A model generated the notes under the pieces. The model ran no database searches, had not been told where the DNA came from, and saw only the letters and a program-made list of their open reading frames with translations. DNA of 36,065 nucleotides from positions 1 through 36,065 of the forward strand of contig CAMWPG010000008.1 in NCBI GenBank assembly GCA_947176075.1, read 5' to 3'. This DNA is from an uncultured Ruminococcus sp. (lineage in GTDB: Bacteria; Bacillota; Clostridia; Oscillospirales; Ruminococcaceae). Below, one piece after another: positions 2,693 to 34,160 of the stretch; position 1 is the first letter of the stretch; every line of letters begins with the position of its first letter. A program made the position numbers and the translations under genes.

Positions 2693-3586
2693 CTACTTCG
2701 TTAAAACTTCGTCCAGCTCTTCAAGATGTTTAATCCTAAGAGTAATTCTGGGGTGACTTGCAATCATTTTCTGAATTATGGAACTATTATCACCCAAAGA
2801 AATTTTTTCAAGCAGATACAAAGCTTCAATCATATCTGAATCATAACCAATGGAATAAGAAAACATATCAGCGTTAAATTCATTTTTACGGCTATTGACT
2901 GATAAAATCACCTGTAAACCAAAATTCAATATCCAGATGGAAATTTCAAACCAGAACTTCAATAAAAATATTAATAGTGCAAGAAAACCATGTTTTCCAT
3001 TAAATGCACTCTGCACCCAATCAAGCAATAGTAAGAACAATCTTGCAATCATTACAAATATGGAAAAAATACCATTTCCAATAATAGCATATATAGTTGC
3101 CATTGTATCACCATGTACAAGATGTGCTATTTCATGTCCGATAACTGCTTTTAGTTCTTCTTCTGTGAAAGTTTGCATTGCCCCTTTTGTAACTGCTATC
3201 GTACGTCTGCCTAATGCCATTGCATTGACTGTCATGTTGTCAACAATACAAATTTCAATTGCCCTTAGCCTTTTATATTTTCCTTTTGCACGTGCATAAA
3301 CTTCATCAAATATTGGTTGTAAGTACTCGATTTCCCGTTTTGTTTCAAGTGGTCGAACTCTGTTTAATAATCTTAAAAGCTTCTCTCCTAAAGAACTAAA
3401 TCCAATAATAAGCGATATAGAATATACTGCAAGTACAATTAAAAAACTTTCTGCCGTACCACCTAAAATCAAAGAAGAAATTATATAATAAAACAGCGAA
3501 CAAACAAGATAAATCGGGTTATTTTTCCAAAACTCAAAGAGAAAATGTATGCTTCTTTCTATACCATCAATAAATCTGTCAATCAT
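2693..3586 (-). CDS. M48-family (HtpX-like) integral membrane zinc metallopeptidase
   Basis: HEIAH motif (VIGHEIAHLVHGD), downstream NEFNAD motif, several TM helices. Confidence 0.9.
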   Translation of the reverse strand: MIDRFIDGIERSIHFLFEFWKNNPIYLVCSLFYYIISSLILGGTAESFLIVLAVYSISLIIGFSSLGEKLLRLLNRVRPLETKREIEYLQPIFDEVYARAKGKYKRLRAIEICIVDNMTVNAMALGRRTIAVTKGAMQTFTEEELKAVIGHEIAHLVHGDTMATIYAIIGNGIFSIFVMIARLFLLLLDWVQSAFNGKHGFLALLIFLLKFWFEISIWILNFGLQVILSVNSRKNEFNADMFSYSIGYDSDMIEALYLLEKISLGDNSSIIQKMIASHPRITLRIKHLEELDEVLTK

Positions 3587-3598
3587 AAGAAGTTCCCC

Positions 3599-4891
3599 CT
3601 AAAATGGTTTGTTTACGTGCAGTTTACTATGGAAATATTCATCTCTGGAAAGGAAAATGCCGTTTCCCATATGTAATTGCTTTATCTCGTCTGGGTGATA
3701 TAAAAATTCTCGCACTCGTCTTGCTGAACCAAAACCAGTTTGCGTTGTATCCAGTCCTTTTTGCTGTAGCTGATATGTCACTTCCATTGTCTGCCTTGTT
3801 CCTAAAATATTCGCCCAATTTTCGGAATTTACTGCACTGTTCTGACGTAAGACAAGATAATTATTGCAGTTTTCAATAATTTGCTGTGTAAAATCTTCAT
3901 CTTCTGCACTTGAAAGGTCGGAAAGACTTTGAGTTGCCAAAACACAAGTTACATTTGCACTTCTGGACTTGTTCACAAGGTCAATGAGCGTTTTTGATGC
4001 ATATACATTGATTTCATCAAATAGGAAAAGTGTTCGGTTCTGATTCTGAAAATGCTGACTTATTGCCTTTTTGCTGTCAATCAAGACTAATCGACCAAAA
4101 GCAGGCGATATTTCGGGATAAATAAGAGGATTCAAAACAAATAGTATAATCGCTTTTTCTTTTAGTGCTGTAGCAATATCAATTCCAGTATCGGCAAACA
4201 ATTCTCCTAATTCACTTTCTGCTATGGTTGAAAATCTTGCAATTGAATTTTCAGCGATTTTTCCCGATGTCTTCGCAATTTCGAGATTTTCTAAATGCTT
4301 TTCTTTGGAAATTCTTTTTTCTCTCACTAACTGCATAGATAATTCGGAGAATTTATCCAGTTCCATATGTTTTACAATCGCTTTGAATGAAAGGGATATT
4401 TCCGCCTTATTTAATAACAAAATCAATCGCTGTAAATAACGTTCTGCATTGACCTTATAATGTTCCTCTGACCAGTTCGTCATATTTATCAGCATATCTT
4501 TTGCAACAGTAGGAGAGGTATTGCAAAATGAATTGTATGTATCACATAAAGACGGATTTGTAAGGTCAATTCGATAAATTTTCTTGTGATAATGCTTGTT
4601 TAACTGTGTAAGTACATCTAAAATACTATCTTTTCCCGTATCGCCTTTACCGTCAACAATCAGCATGGGAAAGTCTTTTTTCATGCAGTTATGCATATAA
4701 TTGCTGAGTGCAACGGTTTTTCCACTGCCTGTTGTACCGCAAATGAAAATATGCTTGGCATTATCAGAACAGTAAACAGGCTTTCTTCCATTAAATCCCA
4801 ATAATGTAGAATTGGATTCATTTAAATTTTTCTGGTTCATCTTCTGTTTGCCCCTCTTAAAATCACGGCGAAAATTGAATAGCTTTCGCAT
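3599..4891 (-). CDS. VirD4/TraD/TraG-like conjugative coupling ATPase (AAA/HerA fold)
   Basis: Walker A ICGTTGSGKT, Walker B-like TLFLFDEIN, ATQSLSDL motif. In-frame reading continues upstream into a TM segment (see finding on T5 run). Confidence 0.85.
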   Translation of the reverse strand: MRKLFNFRRDFKRGKQKMNQKNLNESNSTLLGFNGRKPVYCSDNAKHIFICGTTGSGKTVALSNYMHNCMKKDFPMLIVDGKGDTGKDSILDVLTQLNKHYHKKIYRIDLTNPSLCDTYNSFCNTSPTVAKDMLINMTNWSEEHYKVNAERYLQRLILLLNKAEISLSFKAIVKHMELDKFSELSMQLVREKRISKEKHLENLEIAKTSGKIAENSIARFSTIAESELGELFADTGIDIATALKEKAIILFVLNPLIYPEISPAFGRLVLIDSKKAISQHFQNQNRTLFLFDEINVYASKTLIDLVNKSRSANVTCVLATQSLSDLSSAEDEDFTQQIIENCNNYLVLRQNSAVNSENWANILGTRQTMEVTYQLQQKGLDTTQTGFGSARRVREFLYHPDEIKQLHMGNGIFLSRDEYFHSKLHVNKPF

Positions 4892-5083: not shown

Positions 5084-5728
5084 TTATTTTAATCCGTTCA
5101 TATAGTCCTTTATTTGATGTAGGAAATGAATTTGTATATTCGTATAATAACGCTGACTATCTGTTAATGTCTGTAGAATTGATTTTTGAAAATCTGGCAC
5201 TATCCAGATTTGAGTATCGTACTCCATAAAGTTATCTTTTATAATATTTAACAAACGAGATTTAGCTTTCTTGGTCAGCTCTACTTCCACACAATAAGTC
5301 AATTCGTCTTTAGTAAAAATGAAATCGGGTCTGTGTTTTCGTACTCCAAATCCGTCTAATTGATGTAATTGTTTTTCTGTTGTGATATTCTGCAAGGACA
5401 AGTTTTCTTTCTGCATGAAATAAATCGCTGTATCTAAAACTGTTCTATCATGAATGATTTGTTCAATCTTAATTTTTTCTGAACGTGTTCCAGCTTGTAT
5501 TAAGGTTTTACCTTTCGATGTCAAAAAATAAATATATGGAACGCCGTATAAATATTTTTTGCGTTCCATATATCCTGTGTCTATTAGAATCTTTAATCTT
5601 CTGTCTGTTGCTCTTTGCCCTGAAAAGCCTGCTAAAAAACGAATGTGTTTACTGCCACACGCTCTAAAGCGGTCAACCTCTCTTAAAATTAGTTCGTCTC
5701 TATCGGTTATTCTCACCTGTTCCACCAC
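5084..5728 (-). CDS. Replication-relaxation (Replic_Relax, PF13814-type) family protein
   Basis: N-terminal winged-helix signature (ITDRDELILREVDRFRACGSKHIRFLAGFS...RRLKILIDTGYMERKKY) followed by a nuclease-like half (HRPDFIFTKDELTYCVEVELT). GTG start with nearby AGGTGG. Confidence 0.7.
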   Translation of the reverse strand: MVEQVRITDRDELILREVDRFRACGSKHIRFLAGFSGQRATDRRLKILIDTGYMERKKYLYGVPYIYFLTSKGKTLIQAGTRSEKIKIEQIIHDRTVLDTAIYFMQKENLSLQNITTEKQLHQLDGFGVRKHRPDFIFTKDELTYCVEVELTKKAKSRLLNIIKDNFMEYDTQIWIVPDFQKSILQTLTDSQRYYTNIQIHFLHQIKDYMNGLK

Positions 5729-5764
5729 CTTTAATAATAATAAATATAATAAAATAAATAATAA

Positions 5765-5957
5765 GAATAGAAATAAAAATAAATAATACTACTTGCTCTG
5801 CATACGCTGTATTGCAAATATAATTTATTATATGTATTGCACGATGTTTGTGTGGGGTCTCGTATGAAATAGGAGACCCCACACAAACATTGGCAATTGA
5901 AATACAGCGTACTTGCAGAGCTTTTCTGTGTTTTATTATTTATTTTTATTTCTATTC
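5765..5957. repeat. 193-bp nested imperfect palindrome upstream of the Replic_Relax gene; candidate oriT/replication origin
   Basis: Outer arms 5765-5788/5934-5957 (24 bp perfect). Middle arms 5795-5813/5901-5921 (19 bp with a 2-nt bulge). Inner arms 5844-5861/5873-5890 (18 bp perfect, 11-nt loop). Confidence 0.85.
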
Positions 5958-6016
5958 GCTGTCTTTTATGATTAGAACACTTTTGTCATGGGTCAGTGGA
6001 GCATATAGAAATAGAA

Positions 6017-6176: not shown

Positions 6177-6334
6177 CATAGGATAGACTATTTGTGAATG
6201 TGTCCTCGTTGGCATTCACAAAGCAACCACACATAGATTGTTGTTTGGTTTTATATATCTTTGCATTCTATCAGCAACCATTCATAGGATAGTACATAAG
6301 TGAAAGCTTTTTTGCATTCCGATAGCAACTAACC
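6177..6334. repeat. Element-end repeat array: GCATTC-N4-AGCAAC at 6212, 6263 and 6314, period 51 bp
   Basis: Three exact copies of both half-sites with constant 4-nt spacer, at 6212-6227, 6263-6278 and 6314-6329. Associated CATAGGATAG at 6177 and 6283, and CATAGATTG at 6232. Confidence 0.85.
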
Positions 6335-7358
6335 ACATCGTAAGCGCCTGCTTTCCGCAAGCTCCCGCACATTGAAATCGTTTATCTAAAAGAAAAGCTA
6401 TCCTCGGTAAAAATCCTGAATCTTCAAGAAGCGTGAAAAGCGGGAAAAATATTGCCATAGGCGGCAGCATAACCGCAATAACCCATGTAAGTACCTTATA
6501 TATTCCATCAAGCAGAATGCCGCTTAGCCATAACGGAGCGCCAGACATAAGGCCATAGAGATACTGACCCAAAACAGAAAATCCCTTTTGAAGCCACTGA
6601 GACGGATAATTAGCACCTGATATCGTTATCCATAAAACCAATCCCAGCAGCAGAAAAAGAACCGGAAAGCCCGTATATTTTCCAAGGATTATACGGTCGA
6701 TCTTTCTTTTATGGTCGCAAACGCATTCCGGTTTAGTTACTGTTTCAGCGCATATTTTTTCCGAAAGCTGCACTGCTGATTCTATATCATCAAGAATACC
6801 GTCAAAGCTCATAAGTTCCGTCTGCTGCTCCTCTGTATTTTCCGAAATTAGTACACTCAGACTATCAAGCAGCGTTTCGATACCGCTCTTATTTCTTGCA
6901 GAAATGCTTACTGCCGGAGAACATATAAGCTCACTCAATCTTATTAAATCTATGGAAATATTCTGCTTTTCCGCTTCATCTTTCATTCCGGCGCAAAGAA
7001 TAAGCTTTTGCCCCATCGCTTTTATCTGCAATGCTAAAATAAGACTTCTCTCAAGACATGTGCTGTCGCATACTACTATAACAGCATCCGGTTTTTCATT
7101 CAATATAAAATCTCTGGCAGCCTTTTCCTCAGCAGACTCAGAGCTGAGGCTGTATATTCCTGGTAGATCGGCTAAAATAATATCCTTTCCATTATAGCTG
7201 AACTGCCCGTAGGCACTTTCAACTGTTTTGCCTGCCCAGTTCCCTGTATGCTGACGCATTCCGGTCAGAGCGTTAAACAGGGTAGATTTTCCAACATTAG
7301 GGTTGCCTGCAAGCGCTATAACATAGGGTCTTATCTCATTTGACTCCTCACTTTGCAT
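6282..7358 (-). pseudogene. feoB: FeoB ferrous iron transporter, 3'-truncated by element insertion
   Basis: N-terminal G domain (GNPNVGKSTLFNALTG, DLPGIYSL) and first TM helices. Homology stops at GACGKQALTM; the last 17 residues (WLVAIGMQKSFHLCTIL) come from the element end repeats. Confidence 0.9.
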
Positions 7359-9338: not shown

Positions 9339-10940
9339 TCAGCGGCTTCTTCTGCGCATTGCCACAACAACGCCAATTGCTATCACCAGAAGCGGAATTA
9401 CAAGCCATACGATCCACTTGATAACATCGATCTTTTCTGTTGTGATATCAAGAGTAGATGCTGAAATATTTTTAGAAGCAATAACTGTATTTGCCTCTTT
9501 ACCGCAAATTGTATTCAGTGCGCTGATAACATATGTGCCGTTATTATATGCTGCGTCTGATATTATCATTGAGTCTATCATAGAAATTGATGTCAGTACC
9601 AGCATATCGCTTTCATAAATATTACCATCTGTATTTACCTGATTCTGTACTATGCAGGCAACTGTGCGGGATTTCTTTTCTGCTGCATCCGATTCTGAGA
9701 CAGAAGAATCCTTAAGCACCAGTTCTGTAGAACCCTCTGATGTCTGCCACAGAGGTACTACCACCTTACCATTGTTAAGCTTTTCTTCTATGATAGGTCT
9801 GCCAAACGGCGCAACTATAGGCAAAGAGGAATTTTCAAGACTTCCGCTGTAATTCTGTGATACAACTGTTACACTCGGTGCAATCATGGATTGTCCTCTG
9901 CCATAAAGTACATCATAGGTATTTACAACCTGACTTTTATCCTCTGTGTCATTTACAACGCTCTTTGAAATTGTGATGTTCCATTCCTTCAGGAATGCAT
10001 CAAGATTAGGTGTCTCTCCCTGTGTATAATCTGCAATATACAGCATATGCTTGCCGTATTTACCATCATTATACATAAAATCAGACAGGCGTTTGGTAGC
10101 ATCAACGCTGAGATCGCTGACAGGTGCAGGCAAAATCAGAATGTCATACTTCTCCGGATCAAGTGCAGCTGACGCTATATCAAGACTACGTTCAACATCG
10201 TAGCCATTATCATCAAGAAGATCATTAAGACTGTTTAAAGCATAGACATTGCCCTGAGTCTGGCTGAATATATAGCTGCCGTTCGCTATTTCAATAAGAC
10301 CTACGTGCTTTACATTTGCATCAGTTACATTCATGACAGCATTTGTAAGCATCTGCTCGCCCTTATAACCTGTAATAATATCTGAAAAAGCACATTGACC
10401 GTACATATATGAATAATATTTATTGCTGTCTATATCAAACATTTCAAGGAGACTGCTTACCTTTATACGATCACCGCATGATACTATAACTGCACCAGAA
10501 CCGATATCCCCACCATACATTGTCTGATACTTGGACAAAATATCCGGATCTTTAGTGGTATCAAAATAGGTAACTGTGATATGATCGGAGTAATTCTCAT
10601 ACTTGGAGAGAGTTTCGCTCACCATCATTTCAGTTGTTCCCAAAAGGCTTTTGATAGTATCCTTTTCAACAGAAATGGCGATATCAACATCCTTATCAAG
10701 GTTCTTTATATAGTCAATAGTTTCTTCGGAAACATCATATACATTATCTGTTGTAAGATCAAGGCGGATATCGGCAAGCATACTTACAAGAACATTTATA
10801 AGAACTACCACAACTATAACTACTGCGGTAATTGCTGTTGCCATAGAACCGTATTTCAGCTTCTTACGCATTTTCAGCTTCTTGCGCTGCTTGTCGGTCA
10901 TATTGCCGCTTTCTAAAATTTCCTGCATATTTTCTTTCAT
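9339..10940 (-). CDS. GldG-like ABC-type uncharacterised transport system protein
   Basis: N-terminal TM, LDLTTDNVYDVSEETIDYIKNLDKDVDIAI signature, C-terminal TM anchor. Confidence 0.85.
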   Translation of the reverse strand: MKENMQEILESGNMTDKQRKKLKMRKKLKYGSMATAITAVVIVVVVLINVLVSMLADIRLDLTTDNVYDVSEETIDYIKNLDKDVDIAISVEKDTIKSLLGTTEMMVSETLSKYENYSDHITVTYFDTTKDPDILSKYQTMYGGDIGSGAVIVSCGDRIKVSSLLEMFDIDSNKYYSYMYGQCAFSDIITGYKGEQMLTNAVMNVTDANVKHVGLIEIANGSYIFSQTQGNVYALNSLNDLLDDNGYDVERSLDIASAALDPEKYDILILPAPVSDLSVDATKRLSDFMYNDGKYGKHMLYIADYTQGETPNLDAFLKEWNITISKSVVNDTEDKSQVVNTYDVLYGRGQSMIAPSVTVVSQNYSGSLENSSLPIVAPFGRPIIEEKLNNGKVVVPLWQTSEGSTELVLKDSSVSESDAAEKKSRTVACIVQNQVNTDGNIYESDMLVLTSISMIDSMIISDAAYNNGTYVISALNTICGKEANTVIASKNISASTLDITTEKIDVIKWIVWLVIPLLVIAIGVVVAMRRRSR

Positions 10941-30649: not shown

Positions 30650-31918
30650 TTATGCGCGCTTATTTCCACAGTTTGTACAGAAATTACCCTTGTTCAATGT
30701 ACCGCAGGAACATTTCCATTCACCCGCTGTCTCAGGCTTTTTGCTGCCGCAGTTAGTACAGAAATTACCGCTGTTCGCCTGACCGCAGGAGCATTTCCAT
30801 TCACCTGCAGGAGCTGGCTTCTTGCCGCCGCAGTTCGTGCAGAAATTTCCTGTATTAGTCTGACCGCAGGAACATTTCCAGCCGTCTGCCGCTGCCTGAT
30901 TCTGCGCTGCTGCCTGCTGCTGCATCTGCATTTGAGCCATATTGGCATTAGAGGACGCTCCCATGAATCCGCCTGCATTCTGCATTCCCATGCCCATAGC
31001 CATAAATGCCTGACCTGCACCGGCAGAATTACTTCCAGCAGCTTCCATTCCTCTTGCAACAGAACCCTGTACATAGCCCTCTCGGATAGTCGGATCTGAA
31101 AGCATTGCGCCCTGATTACGCATATTGATAAGCTTCTTGCTTTCCTCGTCATAGCTTATGCTTGCAATGCCAACAGAAGATATCTCAATACCACGAACAT
31201 TTTTCCAATCCTCGTCCAGAACATCGCCCATATATTTTGCAAGCTTCATTCCCTGTGACGGAAGTGTTGAAATACGTACACCGTCAACCGACATCTGATT
31301 TACAGCGCTTGACAGAGCGTTCAAGAACTCAGCGTTAAATTGCTCGCTTATATCCTCAAAATCCACACGATCCTTATTACGTGCCGTACATTCCATATAA
31401 AACTTCAGAGGATCTGCAACCTTTACTGAATATGTACCATGGCAGCGCAGGAAAAGCTCTGCATTATAGAAATTATCAAAATACTGTACAGCATTTCTTG
31501 TTCCAAACTTAATACCTCTGATCTCAGCCAGATTTACAAAATAAACCTGTTGAGCGCTTGAAGGCTGACCTCCAAACTTGAATCGCTTGAATGTATCTTT
31601 AAGCGTATCGCCGAACTGACCATTAAAGAGAGACGGCGCAGAAGACATAAACACCTCATAATAGCCTGCTTCAGCAGTATAATCGATGATCTTTCCGTCC
31701 TCAACAAGGAACATCATCTGATTAGGTCCAACTACTATCTTAGAGCCGTTGGATATTACATTTTCGTTACCCTTTTTATTACTGCTTCGCTTGTTGTTTA
31801 CCTGTACTCCACGGCACATAATGGTAGTAGGTCCCATTTCAGCCGCCTGAATATAATCAAGCCATGAATCTGCAAGCTGTCCTCCAACAGCACCTACTGC
31901 CGCTTTAATAAGTCCCAT
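30650..31918 (-). CDS. SPFH/Band-7-type (YdjI/'virion core protein'-like) protein with three tandem C-terminal zinc ribbons
   Basis: MGLIKAAVGAVGGQLADSWLDYIQA start with RBS GGAGG, SPFH-like body, three WKCSCG...NFCTNCG repeats. Confidence 0.85.
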   Translation of the reverse strand: MGLIKAAVGAVGGQLADSWLDYIQAAEMGPTTIMCRGVQVNNKRSSNKKGNENVISNGSKIVVGPNQMMFLVEDGKIIDYTAEAGYYEVFMSSAPSLFNGQFGDTLKDTFKRFKFGGQPSSAQQVYFVNLAEIRGIKFGTRNAVQYFDNFYNAELFLRCHGTYSVKVADPLKFYMECTARNKDRVDFEDISEQFNAEFLNALSSAVNQMSVDGVRISTLPSQGMKLAKYMGDVLDEDWKNVRGIEISSVGIASISYDEESKKLINMRNQGAMLSDPTIREGYVQGSVARGMEAAGSNSAGAGQAFMAMGMGMQNAGGFMGASSNANMAQMQMQQQAAAQNQAAADGWKCSCGQTNTGNFCTNCGGKKPAPAGEWKCSCGQANSGNFCTNCGSKKPETAGEWKCSCGTLNKGNFCTNCGNKRA

Positions 31919-31983
31919 AATAATTTCCTCCATAAACAAAAGTAAGTTTAATCAAATCATTTTATAATAATAAAATATATCTT

Positions 31984-33889: not shown

Positions 33890-33956
33890 CGAATATGGGT
33901 ACAGAAACGCTGCTGAAAGGTGGCGTTTTTTTGTATAGCGGCATTAATGCCGCCTT

Positions 33957-34118
33957 AGAGCCTGTTTAGTATCTTTTTATGTGCGGATTTTCGAGCATAA
34001 TTTTGCTGAGGACAAGGCAAAAATCCGCAAGCAGGCTGTCGCCTTACAAGGATTTTTAACGAAGTTATCGGCAAAATTTACCGAAAAGATGTGTGAAAAA
34101 AGATACTAAACAGGCTCT
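33957..34118. mobile_element. 162-bp MITE, possibly derived from an IS5-group element
   Basis: Perfect 22-bp TIRs agagcctgtttagtatcttttt / aaaaagatactaaacaggctct. TTA on both sides of the GAGCCTG...CAGGCTC core. No transposase. Confidence 0.8.
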
Positions 34119-34160
34119 TATAATATGGTGACAAGCCATAATTTGAAAGGAGAAAAATTT

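Follow-up and report, generated by a model that had tools for sequence, protein, structure and literature searches.

A nested palindrome beside a MOBC-type relaxase gene as the predicted transfer origin of a feoB-integrated mobilizable element of Ruminococcus

Here, we describe a nested palindrome at positions 5765–5957 of a 36,065-nt stretch of DNA from an uncultured Ruminococcus sp. (the whole stretch analysed is called the window below), and we consider it very probable that this palindrome is the transfer origin (oriT) of an integrative and mobilizable element (IME). The prediction is made because the palindrome adjoins the gene for a MOBC-type relaxase that is accompanied by a coupling protein of its own, because compensatory changes keep the structure among relatives, and because unrelated plasmids carry comparable structures in their MOBC modules, among them pAM373 with an oriT identified in earlier work. 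The preliminary description of this DNA had named a transfer origin, a replication origin and a single-strand origin as alternatives. On these comparative grounds, relaxase homology included, the transfer origin is strongly favoured among the three, and replication is retained as a rival in the form of a second role.

Structure and conservation of the palindrome

Three concentric pairs of arms make up the palindrome: perfect outer arms of 24 bp (5765–5788, pairing with 5934–5957), middle arms of 19 bp (5795–5813, pairing with 5901–5921 with a 2-nt bulge), and perfect inner arms of 18 bp (5844–5861 and 5873–5890) that enclose an 11-nt loop (5862–5872). The left inner arm ends in GGGGTCTC, and the right one begins with GAGACCCC and includes a GACC core. 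These arms and the loop had already been given in the preliminary description, together with a start about 37 bp upstream of the GTG of the Replic_Relax-type gene. Repeat search, reading of the sequence and folding led to the same arms, and the GTG was placed at 5728, which leaves 37 bp between the palindrome and the start codon on the 5' side of the 214-aa gene. That description lacked an AT-rich side hairpin (5818–5833), which is supported by folding and by covariation among relatives and gives the fold a three-way junction.

When folded as single-stranded DNA, the region 5755–5967 reached −65 kcal/mol, compared with −15.8 ± 2.9 kcal/mol in dinucleotide shuffles (z −17.3; none of 200 shuffles was as low). 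Structure calculations of this kind are biased toward GC-rich stems, and in a GC-corrected 200-nt scan the palindrome was the top structure across the whole window. A tRNA/tmRNA search found none. Two other structures of the window may be mentioned: the second strongest (33926–34125) reached −46 kcal/mol, and at 30666–30880, in the 3' end of the ORF 30650–31939, a 135-bp stretch is repeated at an 81-bp offset with 81% identity.

Outside the arms, a candidate inverted repeat has its left copy (CTGTTCCACC, 5717–5726) inside the relaxase gene, in its first codons, and its right copy (GGTGGAACAG, about 5995–6004) in a form that is degenerate in the window; it is clear in some relatives only, with 1–4 mismatches in 16 positions in four of them. 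No series of short direct repeats like that of pAM373 was found beside the palindrome. The outer inverted repeat is a putative binding site, which may stand in place of the direct repeats of the pAD1/pAM373 type.

A scan of genome contigs gave three loci, and a wider genome search supplied further ones. The structure was kept in eight close relatives, in which 93% of cells paired and compensatory double changes affected 15 of the 63 pairs. The covariation score was 0.195; shuffles gave 0.074 ± 0.012, and with the partners slid it never exceeded 0.052. One pair of the side hairpin occurred as A-T, C-G or G-C among the relatives. The preliminary description had proposed compensatory changes in homologous elements as a check and loss of the palindrome upstream of homologues as a possible refutation; the former are present, and the palindrome is conserved at that position. 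Mismatches within the paired arms were few, with 10 of the G-T and 12 of the A-C kind in these small numbers; G-T was no commoner than A-C, as would be expected of a constraint that acts on DNA and not on RNA. In locus L038, the relaxase gene is broken and the palindrome is halved.

The relaxase, its module and the element in feoB

The gene next to the palindrome (5084–5728, minus strand) encodes a protein of 214 aa with a winged helix-like N-terminal half and a PD-(D/E)XK-like C-terminal half. A Pfam Replic_Relax match covers the N-terminal half with a score below the gathering cut-off, and the NCBIfam model MobC_subf matched under its cut-off as well (E 0.0026). Comparison by hhalign with an alignment containing the pAM373 relaxase and Klebsiella MobC gave 98.2% (E 3.4e-14, 184 columns), and a transitive BLAST chain led from P0001 through Carboxydocella to Klebsiella mobC. 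Residues D135, E148, E150, K154 and R158 are aligned to D152, E170, E172, K176 and R180 of pAM373; these five and Y203 are among the invariant residues of the pAM373/Klebsiella MobC alignment, which we take to be the restriction-enzyme-like residues of pAD1 TraX. Y181 of TraX, the tyrosine after the conserved arginine, has reportedly been proposed as catalytic. Its equivalent here is a leucine (L159, codon 5252–5254), and because this position is variable across MOBC proteins, a tyrosine of the Y181 type is not family-defining. A PDB sequence search with the relaxase gave no significant match, and its predicted structure (mean pLDDT 51) was left out of fold searches. On the basis of profile comparison and the PD-(D/E)XK residues, the 214-aa protein is a predicted MOBC relaxase of the pAM373/TraX type. 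MOBC relaxases are related to PD-(D/E)XK enzymes (PMC5714925, PMC8152469) and, unlike other relaxases, have no lasting attachment to the DNA end (PMC8152469).

Counted from the palindrome, the relaxase gene is followed by genes for a VirD4/TraG-like coupling protein of 430 aa (3599–4891) and an M48/HtpX-like peptidase (2693–3586) that is conserved in the module, both on the minus strand and both assigned by family profiles. The coupling protein gene was again the next gene in the plasmid homologues of the relaxase that were compared, and the B. cereus plasmid NZ_CP053967.1 has relaxase, coupling protein and HtpX in the same order. The peptidase gene (3086–3895 in L072) is a fixed third gene, found in Clostridia and on the B. 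cereus plasmid. Between it and the ORF 2052–2552 lies a near-perfect short inverted repeat (2612–2662, GTCCCCGATATG...CATATCGGGGAC), which is probably a bidirectional terminator. The 5.6-kb S. mutans plasmid pUA140 (L065, 1–5640) carries a MOBC relaxase, a coupling protein and a NikA-like protein.

The element is inserted in feoB via a large serine recombinase, and the mobilisation cassette with the palindrome forms one end of it. The junction with feoB lies at the att core CACAT (6334–6338; ATGTG on the feoB strand), next to the 5' part of the interrupted gene (6339–7358, minus strand), whose open frame continues to 6282. The interruption falls at the motif GKQALTM. The 3' part of feoB was found on contig C18 of the same genome, adjoining the large serine recombinase, and when the two parts are joined at the common ATGTG, the FeoB motif GKQALTMCMGFGC results. 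The assembly of the window's own genome lacks the middle of the element; a relative (G020, contig C31) has a complete 9.8-kb element between two feoB parts, in the order recombinase, integrase-like ORF (recognised by eye), cargo, M48 peptidase, coupling protein, relaxase and palindrome. Its longest frame is the recombinase, which is too short for VirB4; judged by frame length, this element therefore appears to have no mating-pore ATPase of VirB4 size.

Three direct repeats, 51 bp apart, occupy 6209–6338 of the window and reach as far as the att core. Repeats of this kind, each about 27 bp long (GGTTGCTGATAGAATGCA-like) and spaced by 50–54 bp, lie between the palindrome and the att core in three feoB-inserted copies, that is, in the window, in L034 (8439–8570) and in L035 (522–650); the three repeats are perhaps binding sites of the recombinase or of its directionality factor. 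In L047 (2845–5211), feoB is interrupted at another point, and a different, distant serine recombinase adjoins the palindrome.

Nested palindromes and the GACC core in distant MOBC modules

Nested palindromes were present in nearly every MOBC module examined. They lie 5' of the MOBC genes, with unrelated arm sequences, in four Clostridia loci (L048, L060, L061 and L063), and also in S. mutans pUA140, Carboxydocella, Enterococcus pDY31-optrA, pAM373, B. cereus, B. thuringiensis, S. aureus, Paenibacillus, Peribacillus and Streptomyces, in a weaker form in Francisella, and in pTW9 and other Enterococcus plasmids. The palindrome follows the M48 gene in L062, where it is not directly upstream of the relaxase gene; it lies about 3 kb 5' of the relaxase gene in L064, elsewhere in the module in Sporomusa and in a Klebsiella plasmid, and at 9581–9780 in CloDF13. 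Inspection of 700–900 bp upstream had missed the palindromes of L062, L064, L069 and CloDF13, which whole-locus scans recovered; such scans also gave those of Sporomusa and the Klebsiella plasmid. The palindrome was the best-scoring structure in 12 of the 15 loci scanned; it came second in L063 and B. thuringiensis, and pUA140 also departs from this pattern. Since the modules were selected by homology and 20 regions were selected for good folding, these frequencies are not a census.

GACC occurred on both strands in 18 of 20 representative 200-nt regions, compared with at most nine for 4-mers of the same composition. Within the hand-read inner arms it was likewise found in 18 of 20, whereas no 4-mer exceeded 16 in 2000 shuffles; hand-read arms are open to selection bias, and the equal count came from the unselected 200-nt regions. 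With automatically chosen arms, GACC ranked first (14 of 19). Most plasmids have it as CTGACC, reading toward the loop, whereas the Clostridia group that includes the window has GAGACC, which reads away from it, so that the equivalence of the two cores is not proven. A fold of this type with a common GACC core recurs beside MOBC relaxases from Ruminococcus through Enterococcus, Bacillus and Staphylococcus to CloDF13, a plasmid of E. coli.

The predicted transfer origin and alternative readings

The oriT of pAD1 and pAM373, studied by Francia and Clewell in 2002 and Francia et al. in 2013, is said to consist of a large inverted repeat that holds the nic site beside short direct repeats. The Francia studies are cited in PMC5714925, PMC5587640 and PMC8152469, and the second of these papers places inverted repeats in the oriTs of both plasmids. 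In our scan, the pAM373 palindrome was the top structure of 36 kb and was flanked by five 12-bp tandem repeats. The window shares with these plasmids a large nested inverted repeat adjoining the genes for a MOBC relaxase and a TraG-like protein, GACC in the inner stem, and the D, E, E, K and R residues of the relaxase. It differs in its arm sequences and side hairpin, in the reversed orientation of GACC to the loop, in having neither the 12-bp tandem direct repeats that adjoin the inverted repeat of pAM373 nor a tyrosine equivalent to Y181, and in being part of an IME and not of a plasmid. CloDF13, whose mobC we found via homology to Klebsiella mobC, also has a nested, GACC-containing palindrome that ranks first among the structures of the plasmid, but this palindrome is GC-rich, lies about 2 kb from the gene and belongs to a colicin plasmid of Enterobacteria. 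NZ_CP053967.1 resembles the window in its gene order and in the nested palindrome on the 5' side of its relaxase gene, whereas it is a replicating plasmid with a distant relaxase that was reached through the Carboxydocella homologue. Among IMEs, class 8 of Coluzzi et al. is described in PMC5357655 as having a Rel_PF13814/MobC relaxase, VirD4 and a serine integrase, and the feoB element has this gene set. By description, it is similar to the compact streptococcal members (PMC5357655; IME_SsalCCHSS3_ND, PMC5704250), but differs from them in its insertion in feoB, its Ruminococcus-type Clostridia hosts and its M48 peptidase. No oriT of class 8 is described in the available excerpts of these two papers.

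If the palindrome is the oriT, the large serine recombinase would excise the element from feoB, and the 214-aa relaxase would recognise the palindrome on the excised circle, probably via the GACC-bearing inner stem. The palindrome may be extruded as a cruciform or hairpin, and one strand would be cut, most likely in or near the inner stem. The VirD4-like coupling protein of the element would then pass this strand on to a presumed helper, a conjugative element resident in the cell, through whose mating pore the small mobile element could move between gut bacteria, starting at its oriT. Some observations count against this reading: the palindromes of L062, L064 and CloDF13 are not immediately upstream of the relaxase gene, GACC points away from the loop in the window and toward it in most plasmids, the relaxase scores under the cut-off in both Pfam and NCBIfam, and short direct repeats like those of pAM373 are missing beside the palindrome.

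We regard it as rather unlikely, but worth weighing, that the palindrome is, or also is, a replication origin used by the relaxase for copying the element after excision. The name of the relaxase family in Pfam ('replication-relaxation') and a match of the protein to a PHROG annotated as replication initiation agree with such a role, as does pUA140, which carries the module and in which no other obvious replication initiator was seen among ORFs of at least 80 aa. Some integrated elements have relaxases that drive replication as well (PMC5357655). However, a separate replication protein is encoded beside the module in pAM373, Francisella pFPK_1 and Sporomusa pSSP59, and the relaxase gene is always accompanied by that of a coupling protein, which is dispensable for replication. 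Replication of the excised circle from the palindrome would be compatible with its role as oriT.

Strong folding and a place directly 5' of the relaxase gene would also suit a large terminator, or a structured RNA or regulatory hairpin belonging to the operon's leader. Such a reading seems improbable, since Rfam gave no match, G-T mismatches were not in excess of A-C, and the positions in L062 and L064 are impossible for a leader. It is considerably less probable still that the palindrome belongs to the att site of the serine recombinase. It lies about 380 bp from the att core and adjoins the recombinase gene in L033, L036 and L038, but plasmids without such a recombinase alongside (pAM373, B. 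cereus and CloDF13) carry it as well, and a distinct array of repeats separates it from the att core. The long, terminal-looking inverted repeats without coding content are reminiscent of a MITE or another relic of a palindromic transposon, and copies elsewhere had been named in advance as the sign of a MITE. We found a single copy in the window's own genome and no dispersed ones, and this candidate was rejected. The sequence has no target duplication at the ends of the palindrome, whose position is conserved and whose compensatory evolution goes together with the relaxase module, and the chance of such a relic appears negligible.

To our knowledge, little is known about how MOBC enzymes find and cut their sites, and their transfer origins have been studied in few cases. 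With the palindrome read as an oriT, we suggest quite tentatively that the MOBC relaxases of Firmicutes, Proteobacteria and Actinomycetota might share one kind of oriT. This would be a nested cruciform whose inner stem holds a GACC core, and it would be recognised and cut as folded DNA by a PD-(D/E)XK enzyme without HUH tyrosine chemistry. If this is true, recognition would depend on the fold and the GACC core and not on the arm sequence, and computation alone could suffice to find such oriTs. A structural rule with a GACC core, extending from CloDF13 to Ruminococcus, offers a way of locating MOBC origins computationally, may help in the design of nicking substrates, and could make several plasmids that are at present typed as non-mobilizable recognisable as mobilizable. 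The small feoB-integrated elements of gut Clostridia also gain a predicted oriT.
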